A stretch of 64,000 bases of DNA, taken from contig NZ_AP014680.1 in the NCBI RefSeq assembly GCF_000829395.1, forward strand, positions 1,240,001 through 1,304,000. Reading direction: 5' to 3'. This stretch comes from Paucilactobacillus hokkaidonensis JCM 18461. Lineage in GTDB: Bacteria; Bacillota; Bacilli; Lactobacillales; Lactobacillaceae. The notes below the pieces were generated by a model. The model made no database searches. It was not told the DNA's origin and worked only from the letters and a program-made list of their open reading frames with translations. How positions within the stretch are numbered: the stretch's first letter is position 1; each line of letters begins with the position of its first letter. Below are positions 6,868-55,023 of the stretch, in pieces. The translations under genes and the position numbers were made by a program.

Positions 6868-6912
6868 GATTTTTTCTCCTATTTTGTATCATATTTATTA
6901 TTTTTATAGATA

Positions 6913-7133
6913 AAACGTGTTCAGCCCTGCAGATGTCTAGGGATAATCCCACTTTACCAATCAATAAATCATAGACCGATTTATTAATCCTTCTACCCTA
7001 TTTTATTGACTAAACGTGTTCAGCCCTGCAGATGTCTAGGGATAAGCCCACTCTACCGACCAATAAATCATAGACCGATTTATTAATCGGTAGAGTGAAC
7101 TTATCCTACAACATCTATTCGCAGGGCTTCACA
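6913..7133. repeat. Hairpin element with a partial direct copy of its left arm
   Basis: A 77-bp segment at 6913-6989 recurs at 7012-7088 (period 99, few mismatches; both contain CGTGTTCAGCCCTGCAGATG). The second copy continues into its own imperfect inverted repeat, so 7016-7133 can fold into one long hairpin (GTTCAGCCCTGCAGATG against CATCTATTCGCAGGGCTTC). The right arm ends at the SDR stop codon. It lies between the SDR and cupin genes and may act as terminator; its structure looks like a MITE or other palindromic repeat. Confidence 0.8.
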
Positions 7134-7877
7134 CTATGCTTGTTTCGTAGGGTAAATCGTAAACTCATTTACGTTCACTTCTTCTGGTTGATCTACTGCA
7201 AAGTTAACCACCCTTGCTACTGCGTCGGGTGTGATTCCAACTTGCTGATAAAATTCTTCCATACCCACTTTGGATTCTCTATCTGTGATCGTTCCTAACA
7301 ATTCCGTATTAATTGCTACTGGGTACAAACTAACTGTTCTGATATTAGTTCCCTCTTGTGCACTTTCCATCCGGATTACTTCCATTAGGTTACGGACAGC
7401 AAATTTAGTGGCACCATACACGCCAGCTCCTGCAAAGCTCTTAATCCCCGCAACCGAGGATGTAGTAATAATTTGACCGGATTTTTGGCTAGTAAAGTCC
7501 GGCATTACGGCTGCCACACCATTCAAAACACCCTTTAAATTGATATCAATCATTTGGTTCCATTCATCCGTGTGTAATGCGCTGATTGGTGAACTGGGCA
7601 TAATACCCGCATTGTTAAAAATCACATCAATCCCACCAAACACAGACTTTGCTTTATCAACTAATCTTTGTACGTCAGCTGGTTTAGTAACATCCGTGAC
7701 ACTATAATCCGCTTGGCCACCATTAGTTTTAATTTCGGTCACAATTTCTTGTAGGCGACTTTCACGCCGAGCACCTAATACAACTTTTGCTCCATTTGAA
7801 GCTAATAATTTAGCTGTTGCTTCACCAATTCCTGAAGAAGCACCTGTAATTACTACTACTTTATTTGTGATTGCCAT
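7134..7877 (-). CDS. Short-chain dehydrogenase/reductase
   Basis: A classical SDR of 247 residues. The NAD(P)-binding TGASSGIGEA is at residues 11-20, the NNAG structural motif near 89, catalytic Ser in TTSSVAG near 140 and YGATKFAVR (YxxxK) near 153-157. ARRESR after the second beta strand favours NADP(H). Substrate is unpredictable from sequence; relatives are annotated clavaldehyde or serine 3-dehydrogenase-like. It follows the flavodoxin gene by 19 bases with its own GAGGAA site, so the two are likely co-transcribed. Confidence 0.93.
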   Translation of the reverse strand: MAITNKVVVITGASSGIGEATAKLLASNGAKVVLGARRESRLQEIVTEIKTNGGQADYSVTDVTKPADVQRLVDKAKSVFGGIDVIFNNAGIMPSSPISALHTDEWNQMIDINLKGVLNGVAAVMPDFTSQKSGQIITTSSVAGIKSFAGAGVYGATKFAVRNLMEVIRMESAQEGTNIRTVSLYPVAINTELLGTITDRESKVGMEEFYQQVGITPDAVARVVNFAVDQPEEVNVNEFTIYPTKQA

Positions 7878-15177: not shown

Positions 15178-15212
15178 CAAATCGAAAACATAAAATGAAT
15201 CGAGGTAACATG

Positions 15213-15674
15213 ATGGCTTACAAGGTAGATTTCAAGGATGTCTCAACAGTAGGATTAGAAAGTTCTCCGGTTGCAACAGCGCTAGCAGGCTTACGTGCTA
15301 ATGAAGCAAGATACTACTGGAATAAATATAAGCATATATTTATCACCGTCCCCGCTAAAGATGATCTGGAAACATTGAAATGGATTGAAACGATTCTCAT
15401 GGAAAAGGAAATGAGTTTTCCTTATAAACCGCTTGAAGTAACCTCATTTGAAGTGGACGGGTTGCGGATGGCTTATGTATTTTATGAAAATGGTCTGACT
15501 GTCAATGTTATGTACAGTGTGGCCTCGGATGGAAAACGCGCCGTAGGCTTTAAGTTATCCGATGGAATGGAAATTCCGCAAGAGTTTGAAGGTAAGTTTA
15601 AATTTGCCCGACAAAAGTCCAAATTGGCTGGTACGATTCGCGGTTCGTTCTTTGTCATTAAAGGAACTTATTAA
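15213..15674 (+). CDS. Conserved-looking cytoplasmic protein of unknown function
   Basis: A 153-residue soluble protein I do not recognise. It has no signal peptide or membrane helix. It alternates beta-rich segments (FEVDGLRMAYVFYENGLTVN) with charged helices and ends in a Lys/Arg-rich region FARQKSKLAGTIRGSFFVIK. Two adjacent ATGs (15210, 15213) are possible; GAGG lies seven bases before the second. It has its own extended -10 promoter after rarA and is followed by a palindromic repeat that probably ends the transcript. Confidence 0.75.
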   Translation: MAYKVDFKDVSTVGLESSPVATALAGLRANEARYYWNKYKHIFITVPAKDDLETLKWIETILMEKEMSFPYKPLEVTSFEVDGLRMAYVFYENGLTVNVMYSVASDGKRAVGFKLSDGMEIPQEFEGKFKFARQKSKLAGTIRGSFFVIKGTY

Positions 15675-15783: not shown

Positions 15784-15980
15784 AAAAAAATGAGAGTGGG
15801 CAATAAGGCGATTAGATTCTGAGCATAGCCTAGATTAACGAATGATCCGTACTTTGGATCGTTTGTTAATCGTAGCTAAGCGGAAGAATCTGCCTTATTG
15901 CCCACGTTTTAGCAATAAAAGTTCGTAAATAATAAAGAGGACGCAGCAAAAATGAAGTTTTTGCCCATCCTCATTTTTTG
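15784..15980 (-). repeat. Modular palindromic element, copy 1 (short form)
   Basis: A 110-bp core at 15796-15905 is a near-perfect palindrome with ends GTGGGCAATAAGGC and GCCTTATTGCCCAC. Next to it, across a conserved linker (TTCGTAAATAATAAAG), is a second hairpin (15935-15972) built on GAGGACGCAGCAAAAA. The same core, linker and second hairpin recur at 23275-23500 and 43656-43950. The outer flanks AAAAATGAG (15786-15794) and CTCATTTTT are inverted to each other but are not shared with the other copies. It lies directly after the lactate oxidase stop and can serve as its terminator. Confidence 0.88.
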
Positions 15981-23126: not shown

Positions 23127-23274
23127 CCAAAAAATGAATTATATTAACAGTTTTCGTTTGTTTTCGCATATTGATTCACAGTTTTAGCTTAGTAAAATTT
23201 TATTTGTTACTACTATCCGATTTAAAATTTATATATCGGTGGATATTTATTGATTAATTGTGTTCGTGGCCGCT

Positions 23275-23500
23275 GATTCCTATCGTGTGGCGCAAAAGAG
23301 GACGCAGCAAAAGCTTCATTTTTGCTGTGTCCTCTTTATTATTTACGAATTTTTATTGCTAAAACGTGGGCAATAAGGCAGATTCTTCCGCCTAGCTACG
23401 ATTAACAAACGATCCAAAGTACGGATCATTCGTTAATCTAGGCTATGCTCAGAATCTAATCGCCTTATTGCCCACTCTCTTTGCGTTACACCACGGAATC
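23275..23500 (+). repeat. Modular palindromic element, copy 2 (short form)
   Basis: Opposite orientation to copy 1: second hairpin first (GAGGACGCAGCAAAAG at 23299 onward), the conserved linker (TTATTATTTACGAA), then the 110-bp palindromic core at 23366-23475. The whole is nested in another imperfect inverted repeat: GATTCC...GTGTGGCGCAAAAGAG on the left and CTCTTTGCGTTACACCACGGAATC-like sequence on the right (23475-23500), unrelated to the flanks of copies 1 and 3. It fills the gap between argR and the 3' end of argS; with the ARG box region (23085-23130) it accounts for that gene-free stretch. Confidence 0.88.
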
Positions 23501-23526
23501 AACCCGCGACTCTCGCACATTCTTTT

Positions 23527-39813: not shown

Positions 39814-40080
39814 AAAAAGCACCCCTAATCCAAGTTGGATTAAGGGTGCTTGCACGGTACCACCTTAAATTGCCATTTTATCACTAAAATAACCTCTTCA
39901 TGTACGGCAAATAAATTGCGATACACTAACACGATAGTGGGTGTGCCCAATGTGGATTACTATTAGTTCACCACATCGCTCAAAAGGGATTTTCGCAATT
40001 TCATTTTTGCTTTCTCTCACCAAACAAAGCTCGCTGACAAAATGATAATTGCTACTCAACTTTCTCATAGCGTTTTAATT
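39814..40080 (-). promoter_or_regulatory. T-box riboswitch of brnQ
   Basis: The minus strand shows AAGGTGGTACCGTGC (T-box core, complement near 39853-39867), then the terminator stem AGCACCCTTAATCC/GGATTAGGGGTGCT and a T-run at 39818-39814. Stem I has AGTA and GCGAGC elements, and its 3' side reads GAAAATCC, so ATC (Ile) is the proposed specifier, using the same GAA-N-codon spacing as in the argS leader. It fills most of the 589-base gap; 40081-40260 is AT-rich and I see nothing more in it. Confidence 0.9.
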
Positions 40081-43655: not shown

Positions 43656-43950
43656 ACAAAACAAGAGGATGTGCAAAAACTTCATTTTTGCTGCGTCCTC
43701 TTTATTATTTACGAACTTTTATTGCTAAAACGTGAGCAATAAGGCAGATTCTCTTCGATGTCCATATTACTAAGCCGAAAACCGGCAAGTAATAATGGCT
43801 TCCGCTTAGCTACGATTAACAAACGATCCAAAGTACGGATCATTCGTTAATCTAGGCTGCCATGAGAACTTACTGCTTTAGCAGTTAGTTCTTTGGACAA
43901 CGGAGTATGCTCAGAATCTAAGCGCCTTATTGCTCACTCTTGTTTTTTGA
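43656..43950 (+). repeat. Modular palindromic element, copy 3 (long form)
   Basis: Same order as copy 2: second hairpin (43663 onward), the conserved linker (TTATTATTTACGAA) and palindromic core (43732-43937). Here the core is 206 bp instead of 110 because each arm carries a 48-base insert: near 43752-43799 and near 43859-43906. Each insert can form its own hairpin (GCCGAAAACCGGC; CTGCTTTAGCAG), and the two inserts are broadly complementary to one another. Outer flanks AAAACAAGAG and CTCTTGTTTT are inverted and unlike those of the other copies. The right end holds the folP stop codon. Confidence 0.88.
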
Positions 43951-53330: not shown

Positions 53331-53529
53331 CCGCAGAAGCTTGCGTGTAACATCAAAATACTGCTATGGGTGATCAAAAAGCTCTCTTTATCTTGGTTGT
53401 CGAAATGTGTTTGCAACCGCAGAAGCTTGCGTGTAACACCAAAATACCGCTTATGGATGGTCAAAATTCGACCATCCATAAGCGGCATTTTACCGTTACT
53501 CTCCAGCTTCTGAACGCGGTTGTTCACAC
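53331..53529. repeat. Long hairpin preceded by a partial direct copy of its left arm
   Basis: CCGCAGAAGCTTGCGTGTAA starts at 53331 and again at 53417 (period 86), with similarity continuing for about 50 bases. The second copy is the left arm of a 120-bp imperfect palindrome (53407-53529) whose inner stem CCGCTTATGGATGGTC/GACCATCCATAAGCGG is perfect. The arrangement equals that at 6913-7133, but the sequence differs. It lies between the converging MMPL and ABC transporter genes and abuts the latter's stop. Confidence 0.8.
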
Positions 53530-53532
53530 TCT

Positions 53533-55023
53533 CTAAACTATGTTTGAATCACTACTCAAATTGAACTTCTTCTCGACTAATCTCAATAATCTTGATAATC
53601 CAAACGTTAATACAAAGTATAGCAATGAAGCAATAATTAATGGGAAAAATGGTTTAAAACTTGCTCCTTGAATAACTCCAGTTTGGAACATAATTTCGCC
53701 AACTCCGACAACTGAAACAATGGAAGACTCCTTAATAACTGAAATAAATTCATTCCCTAACGCTGGCAGAATATTTTTAAATGCTTGCGGTAAAATCACA
53801 TAGCGCATACTTTGCCCCGACGCCAGTCCCAATGATCGTGCCGCTTTATCTTGTCCTGTATCCACCGAATTAATCCCACCACGGATAATTTCAGAAACGT
53901 ACGCACCACTGTTCATTCCCATTGCCAATGAACTTGAAACAAACGCCGACACATGAAGGCCAAGAATTTGGGTTCCAAAGAAAACAATAAATACTTGAAC
54001 CAGCAGTGGTGTGCCACGAGTATATTCAACGTATACCGCCCCAATTGCCTTGACCAACCAAATTTTGGAACGACGCATCATTGCTAACAACGTTCCTAGT
54101 AACGTTCCAAAAATAACACCAATCAATGCTAAAGCAACTGTTATTTCGACTCCGGTAACATAGTAGTTACCATATTGCTGCAAGAAATTTTGCTTAGAAA
54201 ACATTAATTTATTAGCAGTCTTTTGATACTTATCCATTAAATTATGTTTATCAACATACGTAATTGTCTTATTAACGTGGGCCAACAATGCTGGCGCGTC
54301 TTTAGAAACAGCCACGTTAGTTTGCTTGGTGCCACTGGTGAATCCTGGATTAATCATCGTCAAAGTCTTGGACTGGTTGGCATAGGCCTTCCCGATTGGA
54401 GTTTGCGTCACAATGCCATCAATCTTTTTATTATTCAATTGCAACACTAAATCAGTGAACTTGGCCAGCGACACTGGTGTCGACCCTGTCAATTGATTCT
54501 GTACAAATTCCAATTCAGTTGATTCTGTCTGAGCTCCCACCTTGTGACCGCTAAAATCCTGTGTGGTTTTAAATTTATTCTTATCCGTGGTTCGAATTAA
54601 CATCCGTTCTTGTACCGATAAATAATTTTTAGAAAATGAAACTTCTTTGGCCCGCGCAGGTGTGCTATTCATACCAGAAATAATCATATCAATCTTGCCA
54701 GTTTTCAAAGCCCCCAATAAACTTGAAAATTGCATTTCATTAATTCGTAGCTTAACTCCTAGTTGCTTGGCTACTTTTTTGGCCAGTGAGACATCAAACC
54801 CAACAATTTTGTCTTCACCGTTAATCGTTTTATGAAATTCAAACGGTGGATAGTCAGCTGACAATCCGACGGTAATATACCCTTGCTTTTTAATTTTTTG
54901 CAACGTCTGATCTGTTTTAGTCGTTGACGCCGCTTCAACCGGCTGTGTCGTTGCTAAGCAAGCCGAGACAGTCATTGTTAAAACAAGCAACAGCGCCAAT
55001 AATAAGTGCTGTATTTTTTTCAT
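53533..55023 (-). CDS. Glutamine-type amino acid ABC transporter, substrate-binding/permease fusion
   Basis: 496 residues. A signal sequence (residues 1-32) is followed by one periplasmic-type binding domain (ITVGLSADYPPFEFHK near 50, GFDVSLAKKVAKQLG near 75, DMIISGMNSTPARAKEVSFS near 112) and then a HisM/GlnP permease domain of about 215 residues with VEYTRGTPLLVQVFIVFFG near 345 and the EAA loop DKAARSLGLASGQSMRYVIL near 390. This is the fused form common in lactic acid bacteria. No ATPase gene is adjacent, so it must borrow one. Substrate is likely a polar amino acid. The start has GGAGGAT upstream. Confidence 0.94.
   Translation of the reverse strand: MKKIQHLLLALLLVLTMTVSACLATTQPVEAASTTKTDQTLQKIKKQGYITVGLSADYPPFEFHKTINGEDKIVGFDVSLAKKVAKQLGVKLRINEMQFSSLLGALKTGKIDMIISGMNSTPARAKEVSFSKNYLSVQERMLIRTTDKNKFKTTQDFSGHKVGAQTESTELEFVQNQLTGSTPVSLAKFTDLVLQLNNKKIDGIVTQTPIGKAYANQSKTLTMINPGFTSGTKQTNVAVSKDAPALLAHVNKTITYVDKHNLMDKYQKTANKLMFSKQNFLQQYGNYYVTGVEITVALALIGVIFGTLLGTLLAMMRRSKIWLVKAIGAVYVEYTRGTPLLVQVFIVFFGTQILGLHVSAFVSSSLAMGMNSGAYVSEIIRGGINSVDTGQDKAARSLGLASGQSMRYVILPQAFKNILPALGNEFISVIKESSIVSVVGVGEIMFQTGVIQGASFKPFFPLIIASLLYFVLTFGLSRLLRLVEKKFNLSSDSNIV

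Follow-up and report, generated by a model that had tools for sequence, protein, structure and literature searches.

What are the long palindromes that lie behind several genes of this 64-kb stretch of DNA (the window): ordinary terminators, copies of a mobile repeat, or RNA domains that serve the host? A preliminary description of the sequence had reported one module, a 110-bp palindromic core with a linker and a second hairpin, at 15784-15980 (minus), 23275-23500 (plus) and 43656-43950 (plus), which we call copies 1, 2 and 3. It had taken this module for a MITE- or BOX-like repeat pressed into terminator duty, and had predicted many copies per genome.

Five family members in the window

Sequence comparison places the three copies where they had been reported: copies 1 and 2 are 97% complementary across 176 nt, and copy 3 has parts 91-100% identical to other copies. 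Copy 3, however, does not have the 110-bp core ascribed to all three: it belongs to the long form, whose core measures 210 nt and contains a four-way junction. Its outer stem, linker, second hairpin and central 60 nt match those of copies 1 and 2, and it has extra arms besides. Folding energies lie 11.0 (copy 3) and 12.0 (copy 2) standard deviations below those of dinucleotide shuffles, which excludes a chance origin of the palindromes. A motif-only scan of the window (GAGTG...CACG) returned all three copies together with two unrelated matches, while six control motif pairs gave 0 to 8; because of this lack of specificity, a covariance model, R1, was used in its place. Its alignment comprises 31 of the 39 short elements located, 16 taken from the host genome and the remainder contributed by five species of its genus and two belonging to other genera. 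With R1 the window holds five family members, the two additional ones being more diverged and both abutting or overlapping a stop codon (Table 1).

Table 1. Features of the repeat family in the window; strand is that of the conserved fold.
Feature	Position	Strand	Basis or remark
Copy 1, short folded core (GAGAGTG ... CAC)	15792..15905	+	model R1 147.7 bits, E 8.9e-48
Copy 1, linker	15906..15936	+	similar linkers in most host-genome copies read
Copy 1, terminator-like hairpin	15937..15972	+	bulged; no call there in strict consensus terminator scan
Copy 2, short folded core behind argS	23366..23479	-	model R1 145.8 bits
Copy 2, terminator-like hairpin	23298..23334	-	sequence and folding
Older palindromic element behind argS, arms bracketing copy 2	23266..23521	-	approximate limits, by eye
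Copy 3, long folded core with four-way junction	43732..43941	-	partial model R1 match, 49.5 bits
folP stop codon	43934-43936		inside the end of the copy 3 core
Copy 3, terminator-like hairpin	43665..43700	-	sequence and folding
Diverged member directly behind stop of amino-acid ABC transporter gene 53533-55023	53393..53533	-	70.7 bits
Diverged member overlapping stop of SDR-like gene 7134-7877	7002..7138	-	70.4 bits
Truncated tandem copy of the 7002-7138 member	6902..6989	-	only 8.9-10.8 bits with model R1

For copies 1 to 3 the strands in Table 1 are the reverse of those first assigned, the conserved folding strand being identified by the count of G.T against A.C pairs (see below). The gene assignments change in part: copy 2 does lie behind argS and copy 3 behind folP, but copy 1, read on its conserved strand, follows not lactate oxidase but a plus-strand open reading frame (ORF) at 15195-15674, about 120 nt away. 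In Rfam 15, the matches above cut-off in the window are a T-box and two tRNAs, none of them at the elements; with E values up to 5 allowed on four element loci, all 14 matches stay below cut-off, the best being P14 with 32 of 45 bits. The T-box leader lies at window 39839-40077 on the minus strand (111.5 bits).

A covarying, strand-specific fold

The core is a covarying fold of one particular single strand. In the RNAalifold structure of the 31 aligned sequences, 33 of the 38 base pairs show compensatory change and 97.6% of 1176 cells are paired, in comparison with a mean of 79.3% in shuffles and 30-46% when the structure is slid along the alignment. None of 500 shuffles reaches any of the five measures used, a test that is inflated by the relatedness of the sequences and by taking the structure from the same alignment; the slid controls keep that relatedness. 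The conserved strand is fixed by the wobble count, since G.T pairs outnumber A.C mismatches by 84 to 13 over the 31 sequences, with G.T in excess in 30, one tie and the reverse in none, a measure that gives the same answer for RNA and for single-stranded DNA. Read on this strand, the unit runs AGAGTG, core, CACGTTT, linker, hairpin. The internal loops hold conserved bases, GAGCA on the 5' side and TAAGCG on the 3' side, which are near-invariant over several genera. Between seven close pairs of Levilactobacillus copies, base pairs that have changed (taken from single-sequence folds) are broken in 15 cases and kept in 15, four by change on both sides and 11 by change on one, so current selection on pairing looks modest.

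Copy number and forms in the host genome

A DNA search of the host genome (2.4 Mb, three contigs) gives 72 matches, and R1 gives 118 rows, made up of 82 sense sites and 36 overlapping antisense shadows. All of these, from either search, lie on contig 1; the other two contigs have no site against 4.4 expected from their length. The figure of 82 is a lower bound because two window members, at 53393-53533 and 7002-7138 (about 70 bits each), are missing from the genome-wide set. The predicted abundance is thus borne out, with at least 82 sites, and the three copies first described are far from the only ones.

The unit consists of the core (about 114 nt in the short form and 210 nt in the long), a linker of about 30 nt and, often, a hairpin resembling an intrinsic terminator. 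Cores occur as short forms, as long forms with the four-way junction, and as hybrids of one long and one short half in which the pairing is broken. A recognisable centre of the first subfamily is present at 32 of the 40 host loci examined; related subfamilies are found among the weaker genome matches and at the argS locus. By eye, the type of hairpin mostly goes with the linker subtype in this genome (exceptions are loci L010, L021, L022, L024 and L028), which suggests that hairpin and core move together there.

Placement behind stop codons and beside terminators

The usual order on the conserved strand is stop codon, core, linker, terminator. ORFs were assigned by a simple longest-ORF rule, with no gene finder. 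Among the 32 host copies of the first subfamily, 28 have a co-oriented ORF upstream, as do 58 of the 81 usable host sites, with a median gap among these of 8 nt that is overstated for long cores with a partial model match; 22 of the 81, counted from the rows, start within 5 nt of the stop codon. Sites in named genomes agree: 67 of the 82 usable ones follow a co-oriented ORF, again at a median of 8 nt (quartiles 3.5 and 29). The named set comes from 80 of at least 120 stretches with a pattern match and comprises 94 of 136 rows, with antisense shadows and four weak matches making up the 42 rows left out; unusable were 12 of the 94 in the ORF test and five in the terminator test, and one of the 82 host sites in the ORF test. 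Both sets support the earlier claim that the repeat sits at gene 3' ends.

Orientation is ambiguous where two genes converge. Between genes in tandem, sense sites outnumber antisense ones by 28 to 12 in the named set (binomial p 0.017) and by 22 to 12 in the host, with arrays counted singly (p 0.12); pooled, the excess has p 0.003.

Terminators are found mainly downstream of the core. Within 115 nt downstream, one is called at 50 of 89 named sites in the sense direction and at 55 of 89 in the antisense direction, against 19 and 17 upstream; for the 32 host copies the numbers are 17 and 26 downstream against three and three upstream, and random windows of the named loci give 79 of 400. At nearly half of the copies no terminator is called. 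The terminator duty once ascribed to the whole module suits the hairpin next to the core and not the 110-bp palindrome itself. There are departures from the usual order: two copies have no evident hairpin nearby (L009, L026), some Levilactobacillus copies are placed behind a terminator and not before one, and at L063 and L122, by eye, two inverted elements stand either side of one shared terminator.

Distribution across genomes

The covariance-model search of the family, which the preliminary description had proposed along with that of the genome, finds R1 matches in 161 of 301 Lactobacillaceae genomes and in 23 of 40 genera, often 11 or more per genome; the other 140 genomes have no match. 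In a draw across the class, matches appear in six of 299 genomes: the host genome, three from one other family (G507, G517, G592), one from the same order (G046), and a weak one (G475, E 7e-4). The elements in G517, G507 and G592 (L243, L244, L246, L249, L250, L253), which are outside the window's order, are diverged and have a similar internal motif; G517 has six element matches. A pattern scan of named genomes gave at least 120 stretches, and those listed all belong to Lactobacillaceae genera or to uncultured Lactobacillus, among them Levilactobacillus, Lactiplantibacillus, Companilactobacillus, Lapidilactobacillus, Loigolactobacillus and Pediococcus. No copy was found in plasmids or phages by blastn and exact pattern, nor in viral contigs by exact pattern, searches that diverged copies can escape; horizontal carriers were set aside on this basis.

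Occupancy and orientation differ between species

Both inspection by eye and R1 were used to compare four loci in the seven genomes of the genus. Occupancy differs between species, and some positions persist. At folP, the element is present in the host genome alone among the seven species: G001, G002 and G006 have plain terminators with unrelated stems, G003 has nothing, and in G004, which shows a plain terminator, as in G005, the contig breaks off within about 150 nt. The lactate oxidase (lox) gene occurs in four genomes. In G001, where the protein is 88% identical, it is followed by a plain terminator, in G003 by a short hairpin and a different neighbour, and in G005, where the gene has an internal stop, two tandem members of another subfamily are present. 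At argS, an older palindrome of the host holds the first-subfamily copy at its tip; the homologous palindrome in G001 has no insert. In G006 tandem members of another subfamily are present, neither element nor terminator is seen in G003 and G005, and G002 and G004 have short terminators, with a weak 38.7-bit match in G004 further on, behind argR. We therefore do not see an ordinary conserved leader or terminator at orthologous loci, which the preliminary description had considered as an alternative. By comparison, the member behind the ABC transporter gene 53533-55023 has a counterpart in the same position in G001 (64.5 bits), more distant homologues of the gene have no match there, and the host's own paralogue of this gene has a member behind it (116.5 bits).

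More can be seen in other genera. In Lapidilactobacillus concavus, locus L182 has a plain hairpin where the paralogous L133 has a core at the hairpin tip; L150 was dropped as a further empty site, as a masked run follows its junction. The L. concavus loci L133, L150, L159, L182 and L184 belong to a repeated region in which other palindromes abound and several cores occupy the tips of hairpins. A 176-nt unit, made up of core, linker and hairpin, is 90.3% identical but lies in opposite orientations in Levilactobacillus humaensis (L196) and L. paucivorans (L222), inside flanks that are conserved (95.1% and 90.4%), consistent with an inversion in place. The element is kept in place and in orientation in the other seven of eight Levilactobacillus pairs, picked from pairs with both flanks matched on one strand.

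Unit ends, target and mobiliser

The unit inverted between L196 and L222 extends from AGAGTG to the hairpin base. In some copies the unit ends are similar inverted repeats, GAGAGTGGGC and GAGGATGGGC; by eye such terminal repeats are present in the commonest subtype of the host genome and poor in others, and the end sequences vary between subfamilies. At several host copies the bases just outside the unit are complementary, with many A on the left and many T on the right. In permutations this complementarity was equalled in 3091 of 50000 when anchored (25 of the 32 host copies used) and in 880 of 20000 when unanchored (28 of 32). The core-flank test at named sites gave 23 of 20000, but six of the seven best sites are L. 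concavus copies. With such weak permutation support, a split terminator was given up as a general rule and kept only where a relative shows the site. A stand-alone hairpin (hairpin A) was likewise rejected as the target family: its pattern gives five rows at four places, every one a known core.

By eye, no target duplication is seen at argS, lox, L133/L182 or L196/L222, where the relatives are too distant for exact empty sites. As to a transposase with matching ends, for which a search had also been proposed earlier, no ORF-bearing relative stood out by eye in the host loci read, and the Y1 transposase domain (PF01797), the family searched for, has no match in the host genome and is present in one of seven genomes of the genus. 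A mobiliser of the IS200/REP type was rejected on this ground, and a REP/RAYT mechanism is unlikely to be at work at present. Of the MITE/BOX-like label, the data support a modular, BOX-like interspersed repeat in many copies; a MITE of an identifiable transposase finds no support in the host loci read or in the Y1 search.

Relation to known elements

REP/BIME elements, with their RAYT transposases, are small palindromes at gene 3' ends in tandem and inverted arrangements. The present family is like them in size class, position and arrangement, but its host lacks a Y1 transposase, and its longer core has internal loops that are conserved. Group IIC introns insert in a polar manner beside terminators, a placement that the family shares; unlike them it is much smaller, has no ORF that we could see, and has no Rfam match above cut-off in the window or at the four loci.

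The nearest known kinds are BOX and SPRITE of Streptococcus pneumoniae. According to Croucher et al. 2011 (PMC3049150), BOX is modular, tightly folded, intergenic, over-represented between convergent genes and of unidentified mobiliser; its insertion duplicates the target, and among other streptococci it is nearly confined to S. mitis and S. suis. Our family matches the first five of these traits, a likeness by description, and the modular, tight fold with paired ends is of the BOX type. It differs from BOX, as portrayed there, in that no target duplication is seen, polarity is fixed by covariation, 23 Lactobacillaceae genera are involved, and many of the units begin at a stop codon and include a terminator. 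SPRITE, in the same paper, consists of terminator-like repeats near gene 3' ends, with a single 18-bp duplex and a U-rich tract (PMC3049150). The resemblance lies in terminator-like sequence near gene 3' ends; but here the hairpin is preceded by a separate fold, some 114 nt long or longer, and this fold is not a simple long terminator-like stem with a U-rich tract. Literature searches, in which subscription papers are thinly covered, found no description of this Lactobacillaceae family, and the accessible part of the main text of PMC8040213 does not mention lactobacilli.

How the unit may spread

By a slight margin over even chances, we favour a Lactobacillaceae-wide family of small interspersed repeats, whose unit spreads within the chromosome into terminator dyads behind stop codons and brings its own terminator along. 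The unit would spread as a discrete segment. It would insert into dyads rich in A/T, most of them terminators already present close behind a stop codon, and leave no visible target duplication; its own hairpin would keep termination intact, so that the insertion is tolerated, and the core, when co-transcribed, would fold as a 3'-UTR domain. The unit could be mobilised in trans by an enzyme specific for the folded strand, or by template switching when palindromes are replicated. Several results count against this reading: no mobilising gene was found; copies are absent from the plasmids, phages and viral contigs searched, unexpected for an active transposon; sites persist behind the ABC transporter gene in G001 and in seven of the eight Levilactobacillus pairs; complementary flanks are weakly supported as a general rule; broken base pairs equal kept ones in close pairs; some Levilactobacillus copies come after a terminator; and nearly half of the copies have no terminator call. 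A sharper form, a transposase-independent and chromosome-confined element whose main conserved feature is the strand-specific fold, entering the centres of terminator palindromes behind stop codons in either orientation without duplication, we think rather unlikely.

Alternatively, the core may be a host-functional 3'-UTR RNA, a protein-bound or exonuclease-blocking fold selected on the mRNA, of which rare duplications are retained where useful. Compensatory evolution and the near-invariant loop bases over several genera agree with this, as do the tight placement at stop codons, the sense excess in tandem pairs and the lack of copies in the plasmids and phages searched; the differing occupancy within the genus at argS, folP and lox, the broken pairing of hybrid copies, the unit flipped between two species, the 140 family genomes with no match and the equal numbers of broken and kept base pairs do not, and we regard it as a minority possibility. 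We are equally tentative about a passive palindrome that has no enzyme of its own and is carried from one terminator to another by gene conversion and template switching. Nesting at hairpin tips, tandem partial duplications, long/short hybrids, the L196/L222 inversion and the lack of copies outside chromosomes in the searches made are what it would produce, but one would not expect such a palindrome to conserve its internal loops and its strand polarity over several genera. A classical MITE, dependent on a transposase that acts in trans now or did so in the past, would account for the discrete unit ends, the high identity among copies, the differing occupancy and the inverted repeats at the ends of some copies; with no target duplication at the compared sites, no Y1 transposase in the host, no ORF-bearing relative in the loci read and end sequences that differ among subfamilies, it is improbable. 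Least of all do we credit an ordinary family of intrinsic terminators: terminator-like hairpins do stand beside many copies, but the covarying fold has asymmetric loops, the T-run hairpin lies beside that fold and not in it, and the copies with no evident hairpin nearby fit badly, making this reading very unlikely indeed.

The family is strongly covarying, has at least 82 sites in one genome, occurs in half of the sampled Lactobacillaceae species and has no matching Rfam entry. One folded domain placed on the 3' ends of many genes bears on transcript ends and genome annotation, and on how BOX-like repeats with no known transposase spread. If the element were indeed transposase-independent, the 3' ends of many Lactobacillaceae genes would have been re-equipped with a common RNA domain. 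Named strains are among the carriers, which opens the family to testing.

Variant arrangements of the unit

Several arrangements in the host genome depart from the single unit. Loci L273, L291 and L300 (near 473131, 2056377 and 2248477) each hold two or three cores arranged head to tail and repeating every 127-132 nt. At L062 (near 846424) the core is absent between two GCAATA repeats while the ends, linker and hairpin remain. A smaller hairpin, CTTGCCG..CGGC flanked by ACATCG, recurs by eye in L066-L069, L010, L030, L034 and L052; this sub-module seems common to several subfamilies and is also seen within long cores.
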